The notes under the pieces were generated by a model, which was not told the DNA's origin, searched no databases, and saw nothing but the letters and a program-made list of their open reading frames with translations. Shown here piece after piece: positions 1-45,062 of a DNA stretch of 64,000 nucleotides (position 1 is the first letter of the stretch; each line of letters opens with the position of its first letter). The translations under genes and the position numbers were made by a program. This DNA is from Chroococcidiopsidaceae cyanobacterium CP_BM_ER_R8_30 (GTDB lineage Bacteria; Cyanobacteriota; Cyanobacteriia; Cyanobacteriales; Chroococcidiopsidaceae), in assembly GCA_019244235.1 (NCBI GenBank), contig JAFASY010000283.1:1-64000 (forward strand), given 5' to 3'.

Positions 1-444
1 TTCACAACCTTGGTGCCAAATTTAGGTGTAGTGCGTAAACCGACTGGCGACGGCACCGTTTTTGCCGACATCCCAGGATTGATTGCTGGCGCTCACCAAG
101 GCGCAGGGCTAGGTCATGAATTCTTACGCCACATCGAGCGGACGCGAGTCCTTCTGCACCTGATTGATGCGAATAGTGATGACCCAATAGGCAATTACAA
201 AACAATTCAGCAGGAATTGCAAGCCTATGGGAGAGGTTTAGCAGAACGCCCCCAAATCCTGGCACTCAATAAGATTGATGCCGTTGATCTAGACAAGTCC
301 CAGATTTCAGTCTTAGTAACTCAGTTGAATCAAGTGAGCCAGGCTCCTGTTTTCCCCATCTCTGCTGTGACTCACGCTGGGCTAGAGCCTTTGTTGCAGC
401 AAGTTTGGACGATATTGGAGATGTTTGAACCCCAGAGGAGCTAG
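1..444 (+). CDS. obgE: GTPase Obg/CgtA, C-terminal part
   Basis: This is the C-terminal part of the ribosome-associated GTPase Obg, which acts in large-subunit assembly. The reading frame is open from base 1, so the Obg glycine-rich fold and the P-loop lie before the window. Visible are FTTLVPNLGVV (switch I region), the G3 motif DIPGLI, the G4 motif NKID and a G5-like SAVTHAG. The protein ends shortly after the G domain, as in short cyanobacterial Obg proteins without a long C-terminal extension. Family assignment is firm. Confidence 0.93.
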   Translation, partial: FTTLVPNLGVVRKPTGDGTVFADIPGLIAGAHQGAGLGHEFLRHIERTRVLLHLIDANSDDPIGNYKTIQQELQAYGRGLAERPQILALNKIDAVDLDKSQISVLVTQLNQVSQAPVFPISAVTHAGLEPLLQQVWTILEMFEPQRS

Positions 445-575
445 CGCTATGCGCGAGGGTTTCCGACGCCAGTTTTCTACGCTCCTGTTACCCTGCTACG
501 CGCTACGCGCATGCGTAGCGCATTCGTGAAACTGGCTCCTCCGCAGGCGACTAGCGTGCACGGAGAACACAGAGG
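445..575. repeat. Hairpin-forming intergenic repeat
   Basis: The stretch after obgE is dense in short inverted repeats. Bases 500-521 form a 9-bp stem (GCGCTACGC / GCGTAGCGC) with a GCAT loop. An outer pair, GCCAGTTTT near 468 and GAAACTGGC near 528, can enclose it. GCTACGCG- and GCTAGCGC-rich palindromes are a common class of dispersed intergenic repeat in cyanobacteria. No second copy was found in this window. Confidence 0.6.
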
Positions 576-591
576 GTACGGAGACTAAAGC

Positions 592-2031
592 TTATTTTCC
601 TGTTTTAGCGGCAACTGTAGGTTGGCTAAATTGTTGGTAAACGGCACGGGAGATTTGGCGAATTAACTCTTGAGCGCGACTATCGTTGTGAGAACGCTTA
701 ACAACTGCGACAGCAATGTAGCGCTTGCCGCTGGGCATATCAACCAAACCTACGTCTCCTACAAGTGTGCCAATGTCACCTGTTTTGTGGGCAATGGTCG
801 CTCCTGGTCCTAAACCAGGTGGGAGTAATGTATTAATTGTTGTGTGCCGCATAATATCTAGCAAGCGATCGCGAGATCTCAGCGATATCAATTCCCCTTT
901 ATTCACCGAAGCCATCAAATTTGCTAAATCTCTTGGACTTGTCGTGTTGGTTCCTGATAAATCTGGCAACCAGTTACGAATCTGAGTAGCCGTTAGTCCC
1001 CAACTCTGGAAGCGCTGATTTAGAGCAGCAGCCCCTCCCATCCGCGCAATCAGCATATTAGTTGCCGTATTGTCGCTGATCGTAATCATCTTAGTTAAAG
1101 TGTCCAAAGTGGTGAACTTTGTCCCAGGGGGCTTGTACTGCATCTCCCCAGAGCCTCCACCAATGAGTTTAGGCTCTACGCTTAGCATTTCGTCCAAGCG
1201 AATTTTCCCAGCATCTACATCTTGGAAAAAGGCAACGGCAATGGGAAACTTAATCATGCTGGCGGCAGAAAAGGTTGCGGAGCCATTTACCTCTACATAA
1301 GCGCCAGTATCGAGATCAACAAAAAAAACTCCAGGCACTAACCCCACATTTTTAGCCGCCAACTGCATCAGAGCAGTTTTCAATGGCTTAACTTCTTGAC
1401 TAAGCTTTAAGCCAGATGCGGGAGCTATCACTGAGTTGACTTGTTTAGGTCGCAGGTTTTGAACAGGAGCAGTGACAGAATCAGACACGAGGCGGCTGGC
1501 AGGATCGAAAATAGATAGTAGTGTCCCTGCAATCACACCAATACCAACTCCCAAGATCAGCAGTCGTAGACCATACACGACTGGCGTAAGCAGAGTTATC
1601 TGCCCATGATTTCTATATGCAGGTGGCACAGAGCGATTTAACTTTGAGGAAGTCCTTGGCGTTGCTCTCAAAGGCTCCCTCGGTCCCTTGTTCATTGACT
1701 TAGCAACTCTCTTTGGCTCTTTAAACGCAGGTACAGGCTGAATCAAATTTTTCCGACTGTTTGCCTCTGCTGTGGCTCCTGGCTTCCTAGAACGTCCTGA
1801 ACGGTGTTTGCCACTAGTCGTCCCTACTATGGGTTTACTCCGCAATGCCATTACAGTTTCAGAATCGGCTTCTTGGTGATTTAAGCGTTCACTTAAAGGC
1901 TGGAGCTTAGCTGGCTCCTGACTTCTCGGTTTTGGCTGGGGGCGACGCTGGGAAACTCGCCGACCTTCTTGCCGTGCTGAGAAATATTTCTCGTCAGACT
2001 CTGGCACCGATACTCCTTGCGGCACAATCAA
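592..2031 (-). CDS. Membrane-anchored class A beta-lactamase-fold serine hydrolase
   Basis: A 479-residue protein. Residues 1-145 are a basic, Pro/Arg/Ser-rich, probably disordered cytoplasmic part. One membrane segment spans about 150-175, and a periplasmic beta-lactamase-like domain follows from about 215. The nucleophile motif SMIK is at 258-261, SDN at 319-321 and HKTG at 415-418. Where true class A enzymes have the omega-loop Glu166 motif, this protein reads WLPDLS (354-359), with Leu in the Glu position and Ser in the Asn170 position. Deacylation by the usual route is therefore unlikely. A peptidoglycan-related or penicillin-binding hydrolase role is more plausible than resistance (inference). 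Confidence 0.8.
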   Translation of the reverse strand: MIVPQGVSVPESDEKYFSARQEGRRVSQRRPQPKPRSQEPAKLQPLSERLNHQEADSETVMALRSKPIVGTTSGKHRSGRSRKPGATAEANSRKNLIQPVPAFKEPKRVAKSMNKGPREPLRATPRTSSKLNRSVPPAYRNHGQITLLTPVVYGLRLLILGVGIGVIAGTLLSIFDPASRLVSDSVTAPVQNLRPKQVNSVIAPASGLKLSQEVKPLKTALMQLAAKNVGLVPGVFFVDLDTGAYVEVNGSATFSAASMIKFPIAVAFFQDVDAGKIRLDEMLSVEPKLIGGGSGEMQYKPPGTKFTTLDTLTKMITISDNTATNMLIARMGGAAALNQRFQSWGLTATQIRNWLPDLSGTNTTSPRDLANLMASVNKGELISLRSRDRLLDIMRHTTINTLLPPGLGPGATIAHKTGDIGTLVGDVGLVDMPSGKRYIAVAVVKRSHNDSRAQELIRQISRAVYQQFSQPTVAAKTGK

Positions 2032-2104
2032 CTCAGTTACAGAAGTTTATCTGATTTTCTGACAACTAGGCGGTATTTGGTCAGTAATGTGCATTAATTT
2101 CTGT

Positions 2105-2857
2105 TTATTCCATCGAATCAGTGTTCTTAAGTGCCCATTCTATCTGAGTCAAAATCCCTCGCAGCATTGCCACTTCCACAGTTTCTAGTTGAGTGCGATT
2201 GAATAGTTGTCGAAATTTTGCCATCCGGCTTGCTGCTGTATGCGGATAAAGGTAACCAATCTGAAGCAACAGAGATTCTAGTTGCTGGTAGTATGCTTCT
2301 AGCATGTCCAGTGGAGCAATATCCCTTGTTGATGCTGTTAGTTCAGTATTTGCAGATTTCTTATGGAGATTCACCGCTAAAGAGAGTTCATAACAGCAAA
2401 TTGCTACTGCTTGAGCTAGATTCAGCGATGGATAAACATGACTAGAGGGGATGCGGACGAAACGCTGGGCATAGTTCAATTCCTCGTTACTCAGCCCTCG
2501 ATATTCTGGACCAAAAATGAGAGCAGTATTTGTCTCTGGTGCAATCAACCAGGGTAGTGCCATGTGAGGATGCTCCATGACACCAGCTAAGGTACGATCG
2601 CGAGCTGTTGTGGCAATTGCCCGTTGACACCCCTGCAACGCAACAGGTAGCGTCTCGACTGTCATAGCGGCTTCCAGCACATCTACTGCATGCACTGCCA
2701 TCAGCTTCGCTTCCTCTGAGAGCGGATCGCACTGGGCATTCACCAACACCAGATGTTGCAAGCCAAAATTTTTCATCACCCGTGCGATCGCGCCCACATT
2801 CAGCGGCCCAGCTGGCTCCACTAGCACAATCCGCACTCCAGATAATGACTCCCACAT
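2105..2857 (-). CDS. trmJ: SpoU/TrmH-family RNA 2'-O-methyltransferase (TrmJ-like)
   Basis: A SPOUT-class methyltransferase of 250 residues. Motif 1 is near residues 9-35 ([20 protein letters not shown]). Motif 2 is [14 protein letters not shown], and the knot-forming motif 3 is [10 protein letters not shown]. This layout matches TrmJ, which methylates the ribose of tRNA position 32. Other SpoU rRNA methyltransferases share it, so the substrate is inferred. The gene is divergent from the DUF2256 gene, with only about 40 bases between the start codons. Confidence 0.8.
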
Positions 2858-2899
2858 AACATCACCTGTAGCGAGAAGTTTTTAGAATTGGGAAGATTA

Positions 2900-3109
2900 A
2901 TGTATTGTCAACTTACCACCATGGGACGCGCTCGTGCTAAATCTGAACTGCCAACAAAAATTTGTCCAGTATGCCAACGCCCCTTCACTTGGCGCAAAAA
3001 ATGGGAAGATTGCTGGGATGAAGTGAAGTACTGTTCAGAACGCTGCCGACGGAGAAGAGGGCACGGGGAGGTGGGGAGATGGGGTGGTGGGGAGACAAGA
3101 GGGTTTTAA
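2900..3109 (+). CDS. DUF2256 zinc-ribbon small protein
   Basis: A small basic protein of about 69 residues. Its core has two Cys pairs ([10 protein letters not shown] and [12 protein letters not shown]) around a Trp-rich segment, typical of DUF2256. Function is unknown; a zinc ribbon is likely. I chose the ATG at 2900 because GGGAAG lies just before it. An ATG at 2921 would also give a normal family N-terminus. The last 16 residues (Gly/Trp/Arg-rich) are encoded by a purine-rich tract of the kind found between genes here, so the natural C-terminus may have been extended by repeat sequence. Confidence 0.75.
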
Positions 3110-3141
3110 TTGCTGAGAACGTTAACAGGAGAAAGTATTAA

Positions 3142-4113
3142 GTGGTTTTAGATGGACGGGTGCAGCCAAAGCTGATTATTCATGGAGGGGCTGGCAGTTC
3201 GCTGAAAGGGAAAGGAGGAGTCGAGGTGGTGCGCCATTCACTCTTCAAAGTTGTTGAGGAGGTTTATGCATTTCTCCTATCTGGAGCTAGCGCTTTGGAT
3301 GCGGTGGTGCGGGGGTGCGAACTTTTGGAAGATGATCCTCGGTTTAATGCCGGAACTGGTTCGGTGCTGCAATCTGACGGTCAAATCCGTATGAGTGCGG
3401 CGTTGATGGATGGGGATCGCAGGCGCTTCAGCGGCGTGATTAATGTCTCGCGGGTACAACATCCGATTGATTTGGCTCAGACTTTACAAAATTCCCCTGA
3501 CCGAGTGTTATCTGATTACGGGGCGGCTGAATTGTTGCGAGAACTCCAGATTCCTAGCTACGATGCCTTGACTGACCTTCGGTTGCAAGAGTGGATTCAG
3601 GAGCGGCAGGAGAATTTTGTCAAAACAATGGCGGGAGTGGTAGCAGAACAAGAGCTAGTTGAGCCTAGCAACGCCAGACGTGGCACGATTGGTGTCGTAG
3701 CATTAGATGAGCAAGGACGACTGGCAGCTGGAACTTCAACGGGCGGCAAAGGGTTTGAGCGGATCGGTCGTGTGAGTGACTCTGCGATGCCTGCCGGAAA
3801 CTATGCAACTGCCCATGCTGCTGTCAGCTGCACAGGCATTGGAGAAGACATCATTGATGAGTGTCTTGCAGGGCGAATCGTCGTCCGCGTTACCGATGGA
3901 CTCCCTCTACTGGTTGCGATGAAACGCTCGTTTAGCGAAGCTCAAGAACACCAACGAGATTTCGGTGTGATCGCCATTGATGCCACAGGCGCGATTGCCT
4001 GGGGCAAAACCAGCGAAGTCCTCCTCGCCGCTTATCACGACGGTCAACAGATAGGTGACACTCTAGAAATGTCTGAAGAGCCTATTGTTCAGGGTTTGGG
4101 TGATGGGGGATGA
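3142..4113 (+). CDS. iaaA: Isoaspartyl peptidase / plant-type L-asparaginase
   Basis: An Ntn-hydrolase precursor of 323 residues that cleaves itself before a Thr. HGGAG is at 14-18. The cleavage site [10 protein letters not shown] places the catalytic nucleophile at Thr182. The substrate loop [18 protein letters not shown] follows. These enzymes remove isoaspartyl residues from dipeptides and hydrolyse asparagine. The start is GTG with AGGAGAAAG upstream. The 3' end overlaps the convergent glmU 3' end by 25 bases. Confidence 0.9.
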
Positions 4114-5468
4114 AGCCGCCATCCTGGCTTAATCACCTGTCGGGCACGGGCAATCACCAAGCAATCATCTTGTACGTCTTCTGTCACTACAGAGCCCGCT
4201 GCCACTGTCACATCGGCTCCTAGTGTCACGGGTGCTACTAATGCACTATTAGCACCAACTTTTGTCCCATCACCAATTTCAGTAGAATGTTTATTCACAC
4301 CATCGTAATTGGCGGTGATAGTACCAGCTCCGATATTAACGCGATCGCCCAGCGTCGCATCGCCCAAGTAAGATAAATGAGCAACGTTAGTTCTGGCTCC
4401 CAGCTTGCTATTTTTCAGCTCCACAAAATTCCCCACGCGGCAGCCGGAACCTATCTGAAGTGGACCGCGTAGATGTGTATATGGACCGATCTGCACTCCG
4501 GCTTGGACTATGCTGTCTTTGACTACCGAATATAGCACTGTCACATTCTGGTCCAACTGGCTATTTTCGATTAAACTCCCTGGTCCAATGCGGCTTCCTG
4601 ACTGAATTACTGTGTTGCCCCGTAAATGGGTTTGCGGTTCAATAATCACATCTGGTTGCAACTGCACCGTATCATCAATCGTGATGCTATTAGGGTCAAT
4701 CAGAGTCACTCCCGCCGCCATCCACTCTAATTTCACTCGCTGCTGCAAAATCTCATATGCCGCTGCTAGTTGCTGTCGGTCATTAATACCCAGGATTTCT
4801 CGATTGTCGTCGACATCAACAGCCATCGCTGATGAGAGCTGACCTACGACATCTGTCAAATAATATTCCTGCTGGTCATTGTTTGCTGCTAAATGGGGCA
4901 GCACCTGTACCAAGTCAGACCACCGGAAGCAATAAACCCCAGCATTGATACGGCAATTTTGTTTTTGGGCAGTGGTGCAATCCCTGTCTTCCACAATTTG
5001 CGTAATCTTACCTTGACTGTCGCAGAACACCCGTCCATATCCCTGGGGATTAGGTATTTGGGCCGTCAGGAGCGTGGCGGCATTCTGATGCTCTTGGTGC
5101 TGCTGTAATAGACGTTGGATAGTTTCAGGACGTAGCAGAGGAACATCCCCATTTAATACCAGCAGATCTCCTGTAAAGCTTTTGAGGTAAGGGAGCAATT
5201 GCTGAACAGCATGACCTGTTCCCAGCTGTTCAGTCTGTTCAACAAACTCTAATGCTGGTAATGTGGCGGTGTCTGCCTTTGCGAGTGCTGCTTTTACTTG
5301 CTCAGCCTGATAACCAACAACTATCAAACATCGCGTTGGTGCAATCGACTTTAGACTCCAAAGCACTCGTTCAACTAACGAGCGCCCCCCTAACGAATGT
5401 AAAACCTTGGGCAGCGTCGATTTCATCCGCGTCCCGCGTCCTGCCGCTAGAATTGCTATTGCTACCAT
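4089..5468 (-). CDS. glmU: Bifunctional UDP-GlcNAc pyrophosphorylase / GlcN-1-P acetyltransferase
   Basis: A 459-residue GlmU. The N-terminal uridyltransferase has the nucleotide-binding signature [11 protein letters not shown] at residues 7-17. The acetyltransferase half is a left-handed beta-helix of hexapeptide repeats from about residue 255. It contains RGPLQIG, FVELKNS and [11 protein letters not shown]. It makes UDP-GlcNAc for peptidoglycan and lipopolysaccharide. Length and motifs are those of a full enzyme. It overlaps the convergent iaaA by 25 bases and lies 57 bases after the MnmC-like gene on the same strand. Confidence 0.95.
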
Positions 5469-5525
5469 ATTCCGCTTTTCGCGTATCAGCTATCAGCTAA
5501 AAGGATAAAGGATAAAGGCGCAACT

Positions 5526-6410
5526 TCAATTGTTCAATGGCGAATAATAACGCTTTCTCCAGTGCGAGGCTGGTTCCAGTTGACTAGCACGTTGCTCTTC
5601 CTGTCGCCGTTGCAATATGACAGTAGCGGAATCACATAGGTAGGGGTCGCGGTAAGGAATGGCAGCACGGGTGTGTAAATGCTCTTGTTCTTGTTGTGAT
5701 AGGGCTGGCAAGTCATAAGTCACCCAACTTGCCACTGTACCAGGCGATCGCCTCCCTACTGGTGGCGTCGAGCCAATCTGTAACCCAGTTGCTAACAGTG
5801 CTGTCCTGACGGCGGCGGCAGAGGAATAAGTCGCTATCCTCCCATCCCAGCATAAACACAGAGAAACCCGTTCCAGAAATTCCATCGTCCATAGTTGGGG
5901 ACAGTGAGGAGGTGAAAACGGATCTAAAAAAACTGCGTCTGCTAGGAAGCCAGATTGTTGTACTAGCCCAATTGTTACCCTCGCATCACCAATAAGTAAA
6001 GTCGCCTTAAGGCGATCTGTCCAAGCTTGGTGTTCCATTGCCAGCTTGCTAAAAATTGGGGTAGATTCACCCGCCCAGCTCAAGAATTGATGAGTGATCG
6101 CAGCTTGTGGCACAGCTGGGTTCAACTCTAAACCAACCACTTCTACCCAGCAGTTAGGGTTGATTGCCCAAATAGTTGTCAGAGCAGCCGCCGTATTGTA
6201 ACCAAGACCATAACAGATATCCAATATCCTCAAACTAGGTTTCTTTGCTACTTGAGCCAGAAGAGCGGGCTGCACAAACTTCAACAGCGCCTCCTCACGG
6301 GCCCCACGACTGCTATGAAATAATTCACCATAATCAGCCGAAAAAAAGGTGAACGAACCATCATCTGTCAATTGCGGCACAAAATCTTCAAAGTCTTTCA
6401 TTAACTCCAA
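5526..6410 (-). CDS. MnmC/MnmD-like SAM methyltransferase
   Basis: A 294-residue Rossmann methyltransferase of the Methyltransf_30 type. The segment DYGELFHSSRGAREEALLKF (26-45) and the SAM loop ILDICYGLGYNTAAAL (62-77) match the N-terminal half of MnmC, which methylates the wobble-uridine side chain of some tRNAs. The downstream FLDPFSPPHCPQLW is the family's DPFSP motif. The FAD oxidase half of enterobacterial MnmC is absent, as in stand-alone MnmD proteins. It probably shares a transcript with glmU. Confidence 0.8.
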   Translation of the reverse strand: MELMKDFEDFVPQLTDDGSFTFFSADYGELFHSSRGAREEALLKFVQPALLAQVAKKPSLRILDICYGLGYNTAAALTTIWAINPNCWVEVVGLELNPAVPQAAITHQFLSWAGESTPIFSKLAMEHQAWTDRLKATLLIGDARVTIGLVQQSGFLADAVFLDPFSPPHCPQLWTMEFLERVSLCLCWDGRIATYSSAAAVRTALLATGLQIGSTPPVGRRSPGTVASWVTYDLPALSQQEQEHLHTRAAIPYRDPYLCDSATVILQRRQEEQRASQLEPASHWRKRYYSPLNN

Positions 6411-6509
6411 CCAGAGTTAGCAATCTCAACATCACTGATAATTAGTACGATAATACTCAAATCAAACTCCTCCCACTCCCCCAGCTCAAGAATAGCTCTC
6501 TTACTCCCC

Positions 6510-7328
6510 ATGACCCAATCCCCCTACGTCTCCCCTAAGTGGTTATATGAACACCTTAATGACCCACAAGTGGCAATCGCGGACTGTCGCTTTTCTCTGG
6601 CAAATCCCGATTTAGGGCAACAGCAGTATTTACTTCAGCACATTCCCAAAGCTTTTTACCTGGATTTGAACCAGGATCTTTCCAGCCCAGTTGGCAAGCA
6701 TGGCGGACGTCACCCCTTACCGAACCCAGCCCAGTTGGCTGACAAACTATCCGCTAGTGATGTGGATTCCCAGACATTAGTTGTTGCTTACGACGATTCA
6801 CGCTTTGCCTTTGCTGCTCGTTTATGGTGGCTACTGCGCTATCTAGGACATGACAGAGTCGCTGTACTCAATGGTGGCTTTGCGGCTTGGCTACAGGCAG
6901 GGTATCCGACTACAGATGCTGTTGAAACGTCACACAAGGAAACTCTGTTTGTGCCACAACCTCAACAGTCATGGATTGTAGACATTGAGGCAGTGAAAAC
7001 TCGCAAAGATCTGCCGGGAGTAGCGCTCGTTGATTCCCGAGAGAGCGATCGCTACCGAGGTGAACGAGAACCAATTGATCCAGTTGCTGGTCACATTCCT
7101 GGTGCTGTTAACTACCCTTGGCAAGAAGTCTCTAATGCACAAGGATATTTGCTAGCTGAAACTGAGCAACGCCGACGATGGGAAGAACTGCAGCCAGCAG
7201 AAGAGATTTTGGTTTACTGCGGTTCCGGAGTCACCGCCTGCGTCAATCTACTATCTTTGGAAATGGCTGGAATTTACACTGGCAAGCTATATGCTGGTAG
7301 CTGGAGTGATTGGTGTTCCTATACGTAA
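6510..7328 (+). CDS. sseA: Tandem-rhodanese sulfurtransferase
   Basis: A 272-residue protein with two rhodanese domains, about 1-130 and 150-272. The C-terminal domain carries the active-site loop YCGSGVTA with catalytic Cys237. The matching loop in the N-terminal domain (AYDDSRFAFA) has no Cys, so that half is structural, as is usual. A CGSGVTA loop is closer to 3-mercaptopyruvate sulfurtransferases than to thiosulfate-specific rhodaneses, but substrate cannot be settled from sequence. It starts about 100 bases from the divergent MnmC-like gene. Confidence 0.88.
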   Translation: MTQSPYVSPKWLYEHLNDPQVAIADCRFSLANPDLGQQQYLLQHIPKAFYLDLNQDLSSPVGKHGGRHPLPNPAQLADKLSASDVDSQTLVVAYDDSRFAFAARLWWLLRYLGHDRVAVLNGGFAAWLQAGYPTTDAVETSHKETLFVPQPQQSWIVDIEAVKTRKDLPGVALVDSRESDRYRGEREPIDPVAGHIPGAVNYPWQEVSNAQGYLLAETEQRRRWEELQPAEEILVYCGSGVTACVNLLSLEMAGIYTGKLYAGSWSDWCSYT

Positions 7329-7612
7329 CCGTAAAGGGGTCAAGTGCCCACACCCCGTTCTTGGTCAATCTGTCTATTTTATTGTTAGATTTGAATCATC
7401 GGGCTTGTATTCCAGTGCTATCCCGCTCAAGAGCTACTATTTAAGGATAGTTTTATTGACGACTATATAGTTTCATAGAATAAGGAGAATTCTTTAAAAA
7501 TCTTACTAGACTGACATATTATGCCAAGTTTAGCAAAATAGTGCGGTCATTATTATTGCTATAATCAGTGATTCGACTTATATCTTTACTCAAATTTTAG
7601 GTCTAAGTTTCT

Positions 7613-8134
7613 ATGCCTTTCTTAATGAACCGTCTGTCTATTTTTGTAGACGGAAACAATATGTTCTATGCTCAACAAAAAAATGGCTGGTTTTTCGATC
7701 CTAGGCGAGTTTTGGAATATTTTAAAAAAGAACAGCTAGATACTGTACTAATTAATGCTTTCTGGTACACCGGATTAAAAGATCCCCAGGATCAGCGAGG
7801 ATTTCGAGATGCACTGATTAGTCTAGGATATACAGTTCGATACAAGATTCTAAAAGAATATTATGATGATACTTCTGGTCGCTACTCGCAAAAGGCAAAT
7901 TTAGATATTGAAATTGTGGTAGACATGTTTAATACAGTAGAACAATACGACCGGGTTGTTTTATTTAGTGGCGATGGCGATTTTGAGCGAGCAATCGAAT
8001 TATTACGCTCAAAAAATACTCATATTACAGTAGTATCTACAGAAGGGATGATTGCTCGCGAGTTACGAAATGCGACTGATAGATACATTGATTTAAATGA
8101 TATTCGCGAACACATTGAAAAAGTGGACTATTAG
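7613..8134 (+). CDS. NYN-domain protein, LabA/DUF88 family
   Basis: A 173-residue single NYN (PIN-like) nuclease domain. The acidic start IFVDGNNMFYAQ is at 10-21. LFSGDGDFERAIELL and a C-terminal VVSTEGM...LRNATDRYIDL complete the family pattern. Members include cyanobacterial LabA, which affects circadian output; most others are proposed RNases. An ATG at 7625 (MNRLSIF) is an alternative start. The 284 bases upstream hold no other gene, and base composition there is AT-rich. Confidence 0.82.
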   Translation: MPFLMNRLSIFVDGNNMFYAQQKNGWFFDPRRVLEYFKKEQLDTVLINAFWYTGLKDPQDQRGFRDALISLGYTVRYKILKEYYDDTSGRYSQKANLDIEIVVDMFNTVEQYDRVVLFSGDGDFERAIELLRSKNTHITVVSTEGMIARELRNATDRYIDLNDIREHIEKVDY

Positions 8135-8194
8135 TACGTCCTAGTAAAATCAAAGAAAAGTTGTCAAAACAAGCAAAAATCTGGATTTAGATGT

Positions 8195-9811
8195 ATGGAG
8201 ACTCAATCAAAAGATCGAATCATTATTCTGGATACGACTTTACGCGATGGAGAGCAGTGCCCTGGAGCTACATTAAATGTGGACGAAAAACTGCTGATTG
8301 CACGGCAACTGGCGCGTTTAGGTGTGGATGTAATTGAAGCAGGGTTTGCTTTCGCTAGCCCAGGAGATTTTGAGGCAGTAGAGAGAATTGCGCAAACAGT
8401 GGGCACAGAGGATGGTCCCACAATCTGTAGCTTGGCAAGAGCAATCCGAGAAGATATTCAAGCAGCAGCGAGAGCGATAAAACCAGCTGCTCATGCTAGG
8501 ATTCACACATTTATTTCGACTTCAGACATTCATCTGGAATACCAGCTCAAGAAAACAAGAGCTGAGGTGCTAGCGATCGCAGAAGAAATGGTTGCCTATG
8601 CCAAATCTTTCATAGAGGATGTAGAATTTTCTCCCATGGATGCTGCTCGCACTGATCCGGAGTACCTATACCAAGTCTTAGAGCGAGCAATCGCTGCTGG
8701 GGCTACAACAATCAATATTCCCGACACAGTCGGTTACACGACTCCTAGCGAATTTGGGGCGCTGATTCAAGGCATTAAAGCCAACGTCCCCAATATCAAC
8801 TCCTGCGTAATTTCGGTTCACGGTCATAACGATTTGGGCTTAGCTGTAGCTAACTTTTTAGAAGCCGTCAAACATGGAGCCCGACAACTGGAATGTACCA
8901 TTAATGGGATTGGAGAGCGGGCAGGTAACGCAGCGCTTGAAGAACTTGTCATGGCTCTACATGTACGCAGACAATACTTCAATCCTTATCTGGGGCGTCC
9001 AGTTGATTCTGAGGAACCCCTGACTAAAATTGACACCCGCCAAATTTATAAAACTTCCCGGTTGGTTTCCAACTTAACAGGGATGCTAGTACAGCCAAAT
9101 AAGGCAATAGTAGGGGCGAACGCTTTTGCCCATGAGTCTGGCATTCATCAAGATGGCATTCTTAAGAACAAGCTGACATATGAGATTATGGATGCTCAGT
9201 CAATCGGGTTAACAGATAATCAGATTGTTCTTGGCAAACACTCTGGTCGCAATGCCTTTCGGACTAGGCTGAAAGAATTGGGCTTTGAACTATCAGAAAC
9301 CGAGTTGAATAAAGCATTTCTCAAGTTTAAAGACCAGGCAGATAAAAAGAAAGAGATTTCGGATTGGGACTTAGAAGCGATCGCCAACGACGAAATCCAG
9401 CAAGCCCCAGAGCTATTTCGCCTAGAGTTAGTACAAGTTTCCTGTGGCAGTGGTGCCCGTCCTACCGCCACCGTCACCCTCCGCACCCCAAGCGGTGAAG
9501 AGTTAACTGATGCCGCAATCGGCACAGGACCAGTAGACGCGGTATACAAAGCAATTAATCGGGTAGTCAATGTGCCAAACCAACTCATTGAATTCTCCGT
9601 CCAATCTGTAACAGCGGGAATCGATGCCCTTGGAGAAGTCACTATCCGCCTACGGTATCAAGAGCGAGTCTTTTCTGGGCACGCAGCTAACACAGACATC
9701 ATCGTTGCCTCAGCCCAAGCCTACATCAACGCCCTTAACCGCCTGTATGCTGCATTGCCAGCGAGCGAAGGACCACGAGAGCAAGTGATTGCAGAAGGAG
9801 TAAGCAAGTAG
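8195..9811 (+). CDS. leuA: 2-isopropylmalate synthase
   Basis: This enzyme commits 2-oxoisovalerate and acetyl-CoA to leucine synthesis. At 538 residues it has a full TIM-barrel with [10 protein letters not shown] near the N-terminus, the metal-binding [10 protein letters not shown] and [11 protein letters not shown]-terminal LeuA regulatory domain (about 400-538) binds leucine for feedback inhibition. No leader peptide or T-box-like element is visible in the short upstream gap. Assignment over homocitrate or citramalate synthase rests on length and the full regulatory domain. Confidence 0.93.
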
Positions 9812-38468: not shown

Positions 38469-38705
38469 CTACGGCTTTTCTGGAGAGTTTGCCTCCAAAG
38501 CGTCAAGTTTGGCAAGTAGCCTCAACCCCTCTTCCCGACTGCCAGAAGCAGCCATAGCTTTAAAGCGAGTGTAGGCGTCAAACTCAGCAATAGCAATGGT
38601 AGAAAGTTCTTCAACCATTTTGTTGATACTTAGCCCTCTTCGAGCAGCGAGTTCTTTCAATCTAGCGTGTTTATCGTCTGGTAAACGAATGGTGAGAGTA
38701 GCCAC
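38469..38705 (-). CDS. Ribbon-helix-helix antitoxin
   Basis: A 78-residue protein with an N-terminal RHH DNA-binding fold: MATLTIRLPDDKHARLKELA then GLSINKMVEELS. The C-terminus (about 45-78) is charged and would wrap the toxin. Its gene starts 3 bases after the PIN toxin gene stop, so the module is in toxin-first order. It should bind the toxin and its promoter. Confidence 0.82.
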   Translation of the reverse strand: MATLTIRLPDDKHARLKELAARRGLSINKMVEELSTIAIAEFDAYTRFKAMAASGSREEGLRLLAKLDALEANSPEKP

Positions 38706-38708
38706 ATT

Positions 38709-39137
38709 TCACTCCTGCTTGATAATTTGCTCTGGTGTGAGGATAGACAATTGAGGAAACAATAGTTGTGTGTTCTTAAAGTCTTTAACATTATTAGTAG
38801 CAATCAGTCGAGCATTGCCAGCAATAGCTAGCTCAATTAGGTGATTATCAGCTTCATCCTGAAGATTGGGTCTCCATAGGTAGTAAATGGTAATCCACTG
38901 ACTAATGCTCATTAATGCACTGAGTAAATCAAGGATTTCCTCTTGGTTTAACGGACATTGGGCAACAATATCTTTGCGTGTGGTTACCGATTCGTACTCG
39001 CAAAAGAGAGTATTGCCGAACAGGGGTTTGTACTTCCCCTCAAAGCATTGTGTCAAGAGTAATCTTGCTGGGCCTGTGGGTCCAATCAAGGCACTGACAA
39101 AAACACTAGTGTCGATGACAATTCTAGTAGACTCCAT
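38709..39137 (-). CDS. PIN-domain toxin of a type II TA pair
   Basis: About 142 residues from MESTRIVIDTSVFVSALIG. It belongs to the PIN family annotated as putative toxin of TA systems. Acidic residues of the active site are in VIDTSV, in a CEYESV segment, and in EADNHLIELAIAGNARLIAT with NVKDF at the end. It should be an RNase neutralised by the RHH protein encoded just downstream. I used the ATG at 39137; an upstream start at 39173 adds 12 unrelated residues. Confidence 0.85.
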   Translation of the reverse strand: MESTRIVIDTSVFVSALIGPTGPARLLLTQCFEGKYKPLFGNTLFCEYESVTTRKDIVAQCPLNQEEILDLLSALMSISQWITIYYLWRPNLQDEADNHLIELAIAGNARLIATNNVKDFKNTQLLFPQLSILTPEQIIKQE

Positions 39138-39224
39138 GCTTAATGATAGCATATGTGCTATCAGTAGGGTCAAGGTGGTGAAAACGTCTTACCATACTGC
39201 TCATTTCATCTTTTGGGCTGAAAG

Positions 39225-39884
39225 ATGCCTGTGAACCAGTTCAAAGCATTGCTAGTCGAAGGGATTCCTGGAATCGGCAAGAGTACCCTGCTTGACGCTC
39301 TACTGCGCCAGCATGTCGATGCTGCCCAGCCGAGAAGAATTCGGACTCTCCTGCATCTGGCGCAATCCCACACTCATGGTCCACTAGCCTCAGCCGAGGA
39401 TACGGGGACGCTAACAGTCTCTGAAAACCAGCAACATCTTGAACGCATCGTCAGCATCGTTGAATGGTTCCATGCCTGTGTCCAAGAGCAGACCATTCCG
39501 AAGTGCTTCGTCTTGATTGACTGTCTCCACCTTACACATTGCGTTCGTCCAGGTGTTGTGACTTGGTCGGATGTAGCGGGGTTTGATCGCCGACTGGCAG
39601 CACTTGGCTGTAAGCTTCTTTTCCTACAAGTCAGCTTAGAGACGATTTGGGACCGCTCAATTGTGGCGAGGGCAGACTGGCAGTTTATCCGGGTTTACGC
39701 TGCTAAGTTCGGCAAGACTCACGAGGAGCTTCATCGGTACTTCCAAAGCGAGCAAGAGCAGATTGCTAGCATGTTTGAACAGTCGGCGATGCCAAAGCTG
39801 CTGCTTCAAAACGACGGTAGGCTTGAAGATGTCATAACAGAGGCAGAACGATTCTGGCTGGAAGGCTTTGAGGGAGAGCAGTAA
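39225..39884 (+). CDS. P-loop kinase-like protein, unknown substrate
   Basis: A 219-residue protein with a Walker A motif GIPGIGKST at 13-21. It has a nucleoside/dTMP-kinase-like plan: a polypeptide core with VLIDCLHLTH, LLFLQVSLETIWDRS (lid-like) and a C-terminal helix. I do not recognise a family. It may phosphorylate a small molecule. It stands alone, divergent from the TA pair. Confidence 0.55.
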   Translation: MPVNQFKALLVEGIPGIGKSTLLDALLRQHVDAAQPRRIRTLLHLAQSHTHGPLASAEDTGTLTVSENQQHLERIVSIVEWFHACVQEQTIPKCFVLIDCLHLTHCVRPGVVTWSDVAGFDRRLAALGCKLLFLQVSLETIWDRSIVARADWQFIRVYAAKFGKTHEELHRYFQSEQEQIASMFEQSAMPKLLLQNDGRLEDVITEAERFWLEGFEGEQ

Positions 39885-41853: not shown

Positions 41854-42264
41854 TTAGAGATTTTTGGACATGCCCAAGTAAGCGTTATTTAAGTACCCTG
41901 GCAAAATGGCTTGGTCTTCAATCACAGCCTTAACTACATCAGATTCAGCCAATGCATTGACACCTTCGGTTGTAATTTCAACCGGAATAGAACCTAATAA
42001 ATCAGGATGTTCGGCGAGCTGTAGCCCATTAAAGCGTTGGATAATTGGACTAATATCTGCTAAAGCTTCCTCTGCTGACTCACGCAATGCTTTGATCGCA
42101 GCTTGACGCTCCGCACGCGATTGACGTTTTTCGATTGCTTTTTTGGATGGTTGCACTTGCAGTAGGACAATGACACGAACTTTCTGTTGCGGTTCGAGAT
42201 AAGTTAATCGAGCTGCAAACTCAGGGCTAATTTTATTCCGATTGTTTGAATTGTACTCAGGCAT
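41854..42264 (-). CDS. Stand-alone I9-like propeptide/inhibitor protein
   Basis: A 136-residue soluble protein. Its plan resembles the I9 inhibitor or prodomain of subtilases: KVRVIVLLQVQP, a long charged helix with an Ala-rich stretch, IPVEITTEGVNALAES then DVVKAVIEDQAI. Stand-alone I9 proteins can act as subtilase inhibitors or foldases in trans. It is encoded 21 bases after the subtilase, with a GGGGGA ribosome site. Role is inferred. Confidence 0.55.
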   Translation of the reverse strand: MPEYNSNNRNKISPEFAARLTYLEPQQKVRVIVLLQVQPSKKAIEKRQSRAERQAAIKALRESAEEALADISPIIQRFNGLQLAEHPDLLGSIPVEITTEGVNALAESDVVKAVIEDQAILPGYLNNAYLGMSKNL

Positions 42265-42285
42265 TATATTTATCCCCCATTGTAT

Positions 42286-43644
42286 TTAGGTGAGGGCTTT
42301 TAGTGCCTCATCAGGTTGAATCAAACCATGTCCCCACCGATTGCAGGGTCGAAGGTCTTTACCATCTGGATGGTGAGCTGTTTCCTTAAGTACTTTTATG
42401 ATATCGGTTACAGGAGCAGTTGGCTTGGCTGCCATCAAAAGAGACGCAACTCCTGCAACATGAGGTGTTGCCATAGAAGTACCATCCATAAAGTTGTACT
42501 CAAAAGTTCCTTTAGGGTGTTTTATGGGTGGAATACAGGAGTAAATTTGAGCGCCCGGAGCAACAACATCTGGTTTGATCACTAAGCCATTGGGTTCTTT
42601 GCCCGGAAAGACGAGGCTGGCACCACTGCTGAAGAAAGTGACATCAACATCATCGCATCCTGTCTTTTCGATTGCTCCCACTGAAAAGGCATTGTAAGTA
42701 TTGCCGGGAGAACTGCTATTGCCATGATTCTCGTTACCGATTGCCACAACAGGTAAAATGCCATATTGATTGAGTAGAATATCCAGCACTACGGCAAAAC
42801 GTGGTTCATAGTAGTTCAAACCGAGAGACATGTTTATAATGTCTGCTCCTTTTTCAATTGCCCAGGAAATTCCCTCCATTAGAGTTCGCAGTGAGGTGTC
42901 GCCAATCAGGACACCTGCAACGAATAAGTTAGTTTGGGGAGCTACACCGATTGCCACACCGTTAAAGTCTTGACCGCCCGCGATTGTGCCGCAAACGTGA
43001 GTGCCATGCTGTCCACAATCAAATGCGGGTTCTGCCTTAATGCGTCGCCCTAAAGGATCGATAATAATGAATTCTTTGACGCGATCGTTAAGCACTGAAT
43101 GAGCGCCGTACACCCCGGTATCAAGCACGGCAACATTAATCTCTTGACCTTTAGTGGTCTCCCAGAGCTTGGGAATCTCCAGTTGTTTCAAGCCCCAGGT
43201 TAAGCTATCTTGCTTTTCTTGCTCAAGCAGTGCCTCATACTCAACTCTTCGGGGCTGGATAAGATGAATTTTCTGATTGGGCAGAACTGCCACCACATCG
43301 GGTTATTCTGCTAACGCTTCCAAGGTTTTGCGGGTGACTTCGACCGTTGTGACGGGCAGTGTGCTAGAGCCAATGGTGGAAGCTTTTAGAGGTTGTTTGG
43401 TGTAGCCCAAGTCACGACTGGCTTGTTGGTAATGAGTCAAAACCTTCTGCTCAACCGTTTTTTGAAGTCCCGCTTGCTCTTTGACTTCATCCAGCCGTCG
43501 CTTAAGTTCCCGCAGGCGACCGCGTAAGGGTAAACCTTCAATTGGGGGAGCTTGGTGGATCACAATCGCTTCTCGTTTACCATCCTCGCCACTATCGGCA
43601 AGGAAAGGCTCAAAAGCAGGGGAGATTTTTGACTCGGTACTCAA
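42286..43644 (-). pseudogene. S8 subtilase with I9 prodomain, split by in-frame TAA
   Basis: One continuous reading frame of 453 codons including its final stop. The first 113 residues (from TTG 43644) end EVTRKTLEALAE, then TAA at 43303-43305, and the same frame continues PDVVAVLPNQKIHLI. The junction is in the last strand of the prodomain, where a Gln would be normal (CAA to TAA). The catalytic part (from GTG 43296) is complete: VAVLDTGV (Asp59), CGQHGTHVCG (His97), AIGNENHG (Asn188) and DGTSMATPHVAG (Ser274). It may be inactivated, read through, or made as two chains. TTGA overlaps the upstream NTPase stop. Confidence 0.75.
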
Positions 43645-45062
43645 CGCAATTTACCTCTTTTTGGGTTTATTCGGTTAGATCGGCTCTTAATCAATATTGG
43701 TTTACGCGATTGTTTTTCTATGGGTTTTACATCTTCCAAGAAGTTTGCCCAATGGTTTAGAGCTGCAATGGCAGATTTACGAATTTCTAATTTTACTTCT
43801 AATACTTTTAAGGGGTCTTGCACCTTTATAGTCTTCAAGCGAGCTGCTAGTTGTCTTATTAAAGAGGTAAATTCTTGCTTTTCATCAATATTCCTGATGA
43901 GAATCAATATTTCAGGTATTTTATCTTGATAGGTTCGAAGTCGAAGCAAAATTGTCCAGGAAAGACCTTCTACACGGAGTAATACAGAGATCACTCGATG
44001 CAAGGATGCCTTAATCGCTTCTGATCTTGACTCATTTAATTCACTGCGCTTTATCAGCGCAAAAAGGGCAATTTCTGGTACCCGCAACAACAACGGGATT
44101 GCTTGTTGACCTTCTAGAATAAACTTTTCTTCAACCGATGCCACCTTGACTTGTAACCATTCAAAGAACGTAGACTTGCCAGCACCCGGTAAACCAACAA
44201 TCACAGTACGAGAGGAGAGTTTTACTTGCCCAAGTGCTGTAGAAGTCAGTTCATTTACTTTTTCACTATCCTCATTCACCTCTGCCAGCATTATCTTATA
44301 AAGATTGTCGAGGTCTCCGTACAGCCTACGTGCTGCTGCTAAATTCATCAGGGATGACGTGTTTTCCTCTACGCTCTCTGTTGTTTTAGAAAGTTTTCGC
44401 ACTACTACACGAGGCATAACAAATAGCTCTCGCAGATCCACATCTAGATTTGTAGTCATCCGCACAGTTCCCGCTTCAATCCGATGGAATCGTTGTAGTA
44501 AGTAGTCTCGGTGCAAAAGTTCATACCTCTGATCTACTCCAGCTTGATCGGACTGTCCCTGAGCATTAATTTGGTCACTAATTTCATTTAACCGATTAAC
44601 TACTCGGCGAACTAGCTCGAATGTACTGGAGAAGTTGAGTTTTTGCCACTCTGCCATTACCGGACCTACCAGCATCAAAACCTGCACAACGGTATAGAGT
44701 GCTAAACGATATACCGCATCATGGGTTTGCTGCACTACTTGAGGACACGGTAAATGGTTTAGTAAACTTTCAACAATTTCCTCAGTAGTAACATTGGGAT
44801 TCGAGATATCCTCCAGTTGCAGCAGGTTTCTCATCCTTGCAAAACCTGTGAGAATGCCTGCAACCGTCTCCTCACTCAACTTTTGGTTTAAGAAAAAGCG
44901 ACTTAACGACGATGATGCTGCATCTGCCGCTGCCTCAACTTGACGAATAACCTCATTCAACCTTCGTCGCTCGGAGATGCGGGTGTGGAAAGGCTTGGAG
45001 AATATGTGTTCAAAAAGCTCACCGTAAAAGTCCAAAACCCGATCGTCAATTGAGAGTGGCAT
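43641..45062 (-). CDS. NACHT-like P-loop NTPase
   Basis: A 473-residue protein. The N-terminal 270 residues are helical, including the hydrophobic stretch RLALYTVVQVLMLVGPVMAE (119-138) and LRELFVMPRVVV, a pattern seen before cyanobacterial NACHT domains. Walker A is VGLPGAGKSTFFEWL (289-303), followed by IPLLLRVPE. ILILIRNIDE at 385-394 stands where NACHT has a Walker B of the form DGLDE, with Arg for the first acid. The C-terminus is short and basic, without sensor repeats. It may be a degenerate STAND protein whose effector is the downstream subtilase (inference). Confidence 0.6.
   Translation of the reverse strand: MPLSIDDRVLDFYGELFEHIFSKPFHTRISERRRLNEVIRQVEAAADAASSSLSRFFLNQKLSEETVAGILTGFARMRNLLQLEDISNPNVTTEEIVESLLNHLPCPQVVQQTHDAVYRLALYTVVQVLMLVGPVMAEWQKLNFSSTFELVRRVVNRLNEISDQINAQGQSDQAGVDQRYELLHRDYLLQRFHRIEAGTVRMTTNLDVDLRELFVMPRVVVRKLSKTTESVEENTSSLMNLAAARRLYGDLDNLYKIMLAEVNEDSEKVNELTSTALGQVKLSSRTVIVGLPGAGKSTFFEWLQVKVASVEEKFILEGQQAIPLLLRVPEIALFALIKRSELNESRSEAIKASLHRVISVLLRVEGLSWTILLRLRTYQDKIPEILILIRNIDEKQEFTSLIRQLAARLKTIKVQDPLKVLEVKLEIRKSAIAALNHWANFLEDVKPIEKQSRKPILIKSRSNRINPKRGKLR

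Follow-up and report, generated by a model that had tools for sequence, protein, structure and literature searches.

A disabled copy of a rare gene trio encoding a NACHT ATPase, a subtilase, and a free propeptide, and its intact relatives

Three co-directional genes on the minus strand of the window (the whole 64,000-nucleotide stretch of a Chroococcidiopsidaceae cyanobacterium contig that was analysed) encode, in this order, an NTPase, an S8 subtilase, and a small I9-like protein. Do they form a switch in which the NTPase triggers the protease and the small protein restrains it, as an earlier note made from the letters alone had proposed, and does the arrangement exist elsewhere? The gene layout given in that note was right: the TTG start codon of the subtilase overlaps the NTPase stop codon by 4 bases (TTGA), and the small gene starts 21 bases past the subtilase frame.

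When genomes were scanned with the window NTPase, relatives appeared at eight loci (L013–L020), and the three-gene neighbourhood proved to be conserved. Counting the window, seven loci (four intact and three damaged) show this gene order, so the association is far beyond chance. Phormidium tenue (L015, operon at 395–5039), Nostoc sp. WHI (L016), a Xenococcus MAG (L017), and a Methylobacter MAG (L019) each carry all three genes undamaged and in the order of the window, the trio being present in Cyanobacteria and in Gammaproteobacteria (the latter as a MAG). At these loci, the subtilase is 451–458 and the small protein 116–137 amino acids long, depending on the start codon, and the NTPase spans 920–949 residues (949 in L015, 947 in L016, 922 in L017, and 920 in L019 with the start used here). 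Short distances or overlaps between the genes make co-expression probable. When trees of the three proteins were built by maximum likelihood for seven loci, their topologies were identical, with some branches weakly supported, and pairwise distances correlate at 0.976–0.983. Co-inheritance of the NTPase, subtilase, and small genes as a unit is therefore well supported by these sequence comparisons.

Two further Nostocaceae hold broken versions of the operon. The NTPase of L013 is out of frame and lacks ~185 residues, and that of L014 (Amazonocrinis nigriterrae CENA67) is joined to the subtilase at subtilase residue 94. L018 joins NTPase residues 1–252 to the final 30 residues of the small protein; at L020 (Oscillatoria), the NTPase is intact (924 amino acids), and a subtilase or small gene is not recognisable. 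Because several damaged loci are MAGs, faulty assembly could account for some of these breaks; L014 bears a strain name. The end points of the deletions differ (9418–9425 in L013, 9271–9281 in L014, and 3215–3263 in L018), and the three deletions suggest that the locus is unstable or has been inactivated repeatedly. Two similar long open reading frames (MRQYARRTDQSGQKDNDSS...) at positions 6033–7460 and 12742–14034 of L020 flank its lone NACHT gene, a duplication that may be linked to the missing subtilase and small genes.

The intact relatives of the NTPase are NACHT proteins. Those of L015, L016, L017, and L019 all pass the curated cut-off of the Pfam NACHT model (PF05729, 7e-14 to 5.7e-17) and share a conserved Walker B motif, LDGLDE. 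Two of them match NNH1 (8.1e-11 in L017 and 4.3e-8 in L019), and at the N-terminus no fused effector domain other than this helical domain was recognised. The assignment to NACHT/STAND NTPases thus holds for the family but not for the window copy itself, which found no match in the Pfam NACHT search. This protein is 473 amino acids long, about half the length of its relatives, and a profile of the full-length protein matches its two ends with nothing between, so that ~472 of 940 positions (~1.4 kb) are missing. The lost part (model positions 339–810) comprises all of NACHT beyond the P-loop and the next helical region. The Walker A motif noticed earlier is genuine. In the alignment, the Walker B motif and the ISSRP sensor region of the relatives are gone, which explains the failure to match the Pfam model. 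What had been read as a degenerate Walker B, IRNIDE, lies outside NACHT: the tail of the window NTPase aligns with L015 residues 814–932 (blastp, E = 2e-23), where IRNIDEKQEF faces YWSLEEKQEF, and this reading was therefore discarded. The AF2 model of the NTPase was poor (pLDDT 58.8), so no domain-level mechanism could be read from it.

The subtilase frame of the window has a lesion of its own. Ahead of the terminal stop it counts 452 codons, one of which is an internal TAA (43305–43303) at a position where four checked relatives read CAA or CAG (Gln). In view of the NTPase deletion and this nonsense codon, we do not take the window copy as working: it is a relic of the trio that cannot make the NACHT ATPase and would not make a full-length subtilase except by readthrough (Table 1). 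Pairwise dN/dS values among the window, L015, and L016, to be read with synonymous sites near saturation in several pairs, indicate strong purifying selection on the subtilase (~0.06–0.08), moderate selection on NTPase residues 1–335 (~0.09–0.12), and weaker selection on the small protein (0.2–0.3). For the window, the values equal those between intact copies, which implies that its lesions are recent or few. The same figures, together with the good conservation of the remaining sequence, are what one would cite for a copy that still functions, through readthrough of the TAA, or with the TAA as a sequencing error, and with the short NTPase acting as a P-loop protein devoid of NACHT. We regard this as very improbable, since there are two independent lesions, one of which removed the Walker B and sensor region, and a search of the genome found no second full-length NACHT of this family. 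Other NACHT genes are present there.

Table 1. Features of the three-gene locus in the window
Feature	Position	Strand	Basis
NACHT NTPase gene, internally deleted copy, 473 aa	43641..45062	-	profile match 2-338 and 811-938 of 940
Helical N-terminal region equivalent to NNH1 (NACHT N-terminal helical domain 1)	44580..44984	-	alignment to L017/L019
Walker A / P-loop GLPGAGKST, residues 290-298	44169..44195	-	P-loop conserved in all relatives
Deletion junction IPLLLRV/PEIAL in NTPase	44064..44099	-	alignment and profile comparison with relatives
IRNIDE, C-terminal tail of NTPase	43881..43898	-	blastp to L015
S8 subtilase gene with N-terminal I9-like prodomain	42286..43644	-	Pfam Peptidase_S8, 3.1e-45
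In-frame TAA inside subtilase prodomain	43303..43305	-	Gln (CAA/CAG) in relatives
Subtilase catalytic domain	42325..43149	-	Peptidase_S8 match
Catalytic codons Asp, His, Asn, Ser	43120-43122, 42997-42999, 42733-42735, 42475-42477	-	
Stand-alone propeptide (I9-like) protein, 136 aa, frame intact	41854..42264	-	profile and fold comparison

The subtilase is otherwise recognisable as a member of the S8 family. The full catalytic triad that had been noticed is in place (Asp175, His216, and Ser390), along with the oxyanion residue Asn304. The protein carries a full prodomain of its own in cis, weakly matched by I9 (0.0094 in L015). By eye there is no apparent signal sequence, and the enzyme is probably cytosolic.

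The third gene appears to encode a free version of this prodomain. The I9-like label attached to it by the earlier note is supported by both profile and fold. When the small-protein profile was aligned to the subtilase prodomain, hhalign gave a probability of 97.2 and E = 3.4e-11 over nearly the whole length of the small protein; the two share a KISPxF-type motif at the start and a similar strand at the end. In genome searches, the same profile also detects prodomains (E ~1e-4 to 1e-7). In an AF2 model of the small protein (pLDDT 78), the core runs strand-helix-strand-helix-strand, as it does in I9 propeptides, and the model's best Foldseek matches in the PDB are the propeptides ProN-Tk-SP, Tk-subtilisin (Tk-propeptide), and subtilisin E, with the PCSK9 prodomain ranking lower; the top matches have a probability of 1.00, but their E-values reach only ~3e-3. 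A PDB sequence search with the small-protein profile gave nothing significant, matches coming from the fold search alone, and Pfam I9 matched neither the window protein nor its intact relatives. The propeptide assignment thus rests on profile-profile and fold comparison, by which the small protein is well supported as a stand-alone homologue of the propeptide of its own subtilase.

A free propeptide would be expected to inhibit the neighbouring subtilase in trans, by analogy with known cases. The yeast proteinase B inhibitor is a stand-alone propeptide-like subtilase inhibitor, eukaryotic and without a NACHT partner or operon. Likewise, SUB1-ProM, a stand-alone propeptide-like protein encoded beside Plasmodium subtilases, inhibits one of them; it too is eukaryotic and, unlike the trio, has no NACHT partner and no operon (PMC6993865). 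The homology of the trio's small protein to the prodomain would equally suit a protein that mainly helps the subtilase to fold in trans, as an intermolecular chaperone (foldase), rather than inhibiting it, and subtilisin propeptides are known to be foldases and inhibitors both (PMC6220982). We nevertheless consider a main role as foldase unlikely: with a complete prodomain in cis a second foldase is unnecessary, and an excess of inhibitor, as in SUB1-ProM (PMC6993865), fits better. The small gene is intact in all three damaged copies that retain the NACHT-linked subtilase (the window, L013, and L014). This is as expected for a protease brake, though three cases are not proof.

Searches of wider samples showed that the genes are rare and that their linkage is not absolute. 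The small-protein profile found matches in 6 of 386 genomes drawn from across the phylum, in part weak ones or ones made via the prodomain, and the prodomain profile in 4 of 292. In a gammaproteobacterial sample of 274 genomes, the prodomain was detected in the already known Methylobacter genome and in no other. At L029, the subtilase and the small gene occur with no NACHT adjacent; the small protein there (5412–6137, minus strand; 241 amino acids) has its I9-like part at the C-terminus, behind an N-terminal extension of ~100 residues. L031 and L032 contain a prodomain-type subtilase without either neighbour gene, and no close NACHT of this family was found elsewhere in the genomes of L029, L031, and L032. 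Conversely, the sister NACHT proteins L072 and L073 (~33% identity) stand alone. The NACHT gene and the protease-inhibitor pair are therefore evolutionarily separable, the trio being one combination of them, and the pair in L029 and the lone subtilases of L031 and L032 imply that the protease does not require NACHT control. In L030, a KISP-type small I9-like protein of 110 amino acids (5220–5552) is encoded near a different S8 protease (7176–8621), with an apparent transposase gene between the two. The arrangement of a protease with a free propeptide may thus be wider than the NACHT trio. Spread by phages or plasmids was set aside, because profile searches of viral contigs and plasmids gave it no support: viral contigs yielded no relative by the small-protein or NACHT profile, plasmids no small-protein relative, and the plasmid matches of the subtilase and NACHT profiles were distant ones only.

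The L029 pair raises the possibility that the core of the system is a toxin-antitoxin-like addiction pair, with the subtilase as toxin, the I9-like protein as antitoxin, and the NACHT protein as a frequent passenger or an extra trigger; retention of the small gene wherever a NACHT-linked subtilase persists would agree with this. We judge it distinctly unlikely, given that the gene trees are congruent, that a NACHT gene, whole or broken, lies upstream of the pair at seven of the eight loci with a full-length small gene, and that the prodomain-type subtilases of L031 and L032 have no small gene nearby.

The surroundings of the loci are not uniform. There is no consistent defence island around them, the flanking genes differing from locus to locus, and the neighbours tested gave nothing beyond generic matches, judged uninformative in this respect, such as PDC-S17 by L015 and PDC-M59B/PDC-S23 by L013, the latter Fic/Doc-like by eye. 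Defence-system models run on the three genes gave nothing but generic matches to the subtilase/IetS catalytic domain, and no PADLOC model matched the NACHT protein. A reading of the subtilase as a RiPP leader protease was dropped, as no precursor or modification genes were recognised beside the loci. In the window, ~3 kb from the operon, a PIN-domain protein (PF13470, 3.2e-20) adjoins a ribbon-helix-helix protein (38469–39173, minus strand); these genes are likely a toxin-antitoxin pair. At 39225–39884 on the plus strand lies a gene for a 219-amino-acid P-loop protein that matches nSTAND3/AAA_16 weakly and looks somewhat like a nucleoside kinase.

The inconsistent context, and the L029 pair without NACHT, would suit a physiological module of intracellular proteolysis in stress, starvation, or cell differentiation, in which NACHT is an ATP-dependent regulator and the I9-like protein a housekeeping brake, much as in the intracellular subtilisins of Bacillus with their inhibitor. 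Intracellular subtilisins with inhibitory propeptides do serve stationary-phase proteolysis (PMC6220982). Such a role seems to us somewhat unlikely, because the very patchy spread in the 386 genomes, the occurrence in a distant phylum, and the repeated loss fit an accessory conflict gene better.

Comparison with described systems shows where the trio may belong. It shares with IetAS the logic of an ATPase plus an S8 protease, and the S8 catalytic domain matches part of the IetS models. However, IetS is much larger than the trio subtilase, the ATPase here is a NACHT protein and not of the IetA type, and the trio adds an I9-like gene. Membership was rejected, as the IetS score was 42.3 against an NCBIfam cut-off of 900, with a match to the catalytic part of the model alone (254–511 of 749); no IetA partner was matched among the three genes. 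In gasdermin operons, the downstream effector is a protease; that of the trio differs in being an S8 enzyme with an I9-like partner. In CARD-NLR/bacterial gasdermin systems such as LypABC, an NLR-like ATPase is proposed to control a downstream effector in an inflammasome-like manner (PMC13236601), as may be the case in the trio. Neither Pfam nor PADLOC matched a CARD, a trypsin-like protease, or a gasdermin in the three genes, and distant CARD-like folds are possible given the poor NTPase model.

Bacterial NACHT proteins are proven phage defences, and antiphage bNACHT proteins have, like the trio NTPase, a central NACHT ATPase between N- and C-terminal regions; in bNACHT25, for example, the effector is a nuclease in the same chain, whereas the presumed effector of the trio is a separate subtilase with an inhibitor gene (PMC12169576). 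S8 domains also flank NucA nucleases, in a different system (Kaur et al. 2020; PMC7159879). The nearest description found in our literature search is the Thiohalocapsa DGR 3 locus, a putative conflict system in which a NACHT STAND protein adjoins an S8 peptidase (PMC10907252). Unlike in the trio, the NACHT protein there forms one chain with a CLec domain diversified by the DGR, and the peptidase has WD40 repeats; a stand-alone propeptide gene, which the trio has, goes unmentioned in the available part of that report (PMC10907252). The search returned no description of a trio of NACHT, subtilase, and free propeptide. The trio is a real, conserved, and rare combination that resembles known NLR-protease systems, is probably a defence or cell-death switch, and is apparently undescribed as such.

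We give about an even chance to the view that the trio is an NLR-like switch over an apparently cytosolic subtilase, which its prodomain and a propeptide inhibitor encoded in trans keep in check. This view builds on the gene order, the co-inheritance, the NACHT and S8 identities, the prodomain homology, and the catalytic residues of the trio; inhibition in trans, activation of the subtilase by the NACHT protein, the trigger, and a role in defence we infer. The NACHT STAND ATPase has NNH1-type helices at its N-terminus, and the helical region at its C-terminus lies where the sensor usually sits. The subtilase would be made as a zymogen, folded and capped by its I9-fold prodomain, and once the prodomain was cleaved, the free I9-like protein would block the mature protease in trans. 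A trigger, most likely a product of a phage or other invader, would be sensed by the C-terminal half of the NACHT protein, which would then oligomerise with ATP, its N-terminal helices recruiting or releasing the subtilase. The freed protease would cut host or phage proteins, so that infection was stopped or the cell killed. In the fuller, inflammasome-like version, a NACHT receptor would set free a cytosolic subtilase that a separately encoded duplicate of its propeptide keeps silent in the manner of an antitoxin, the system occurring intact here and there among cyanobacteria and in one or more gammaproteobacterial genomes. This version is tentative, and we put it a little short of even.

The trio moves as one and yet is often disabled, as would suit an immune or death system that is costly to its host. 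The value of the window copy is as a lead only; the copies worth study are the intact ones of Phormidium tenue, Nostoc sp. WHI, Xenococcus, and Methylobacter. If the switch were confirmed, subtilases would join the proteases under bacterial NLR-like control, and a duplicated, free-standing propeptide would be the brake on such a protease.
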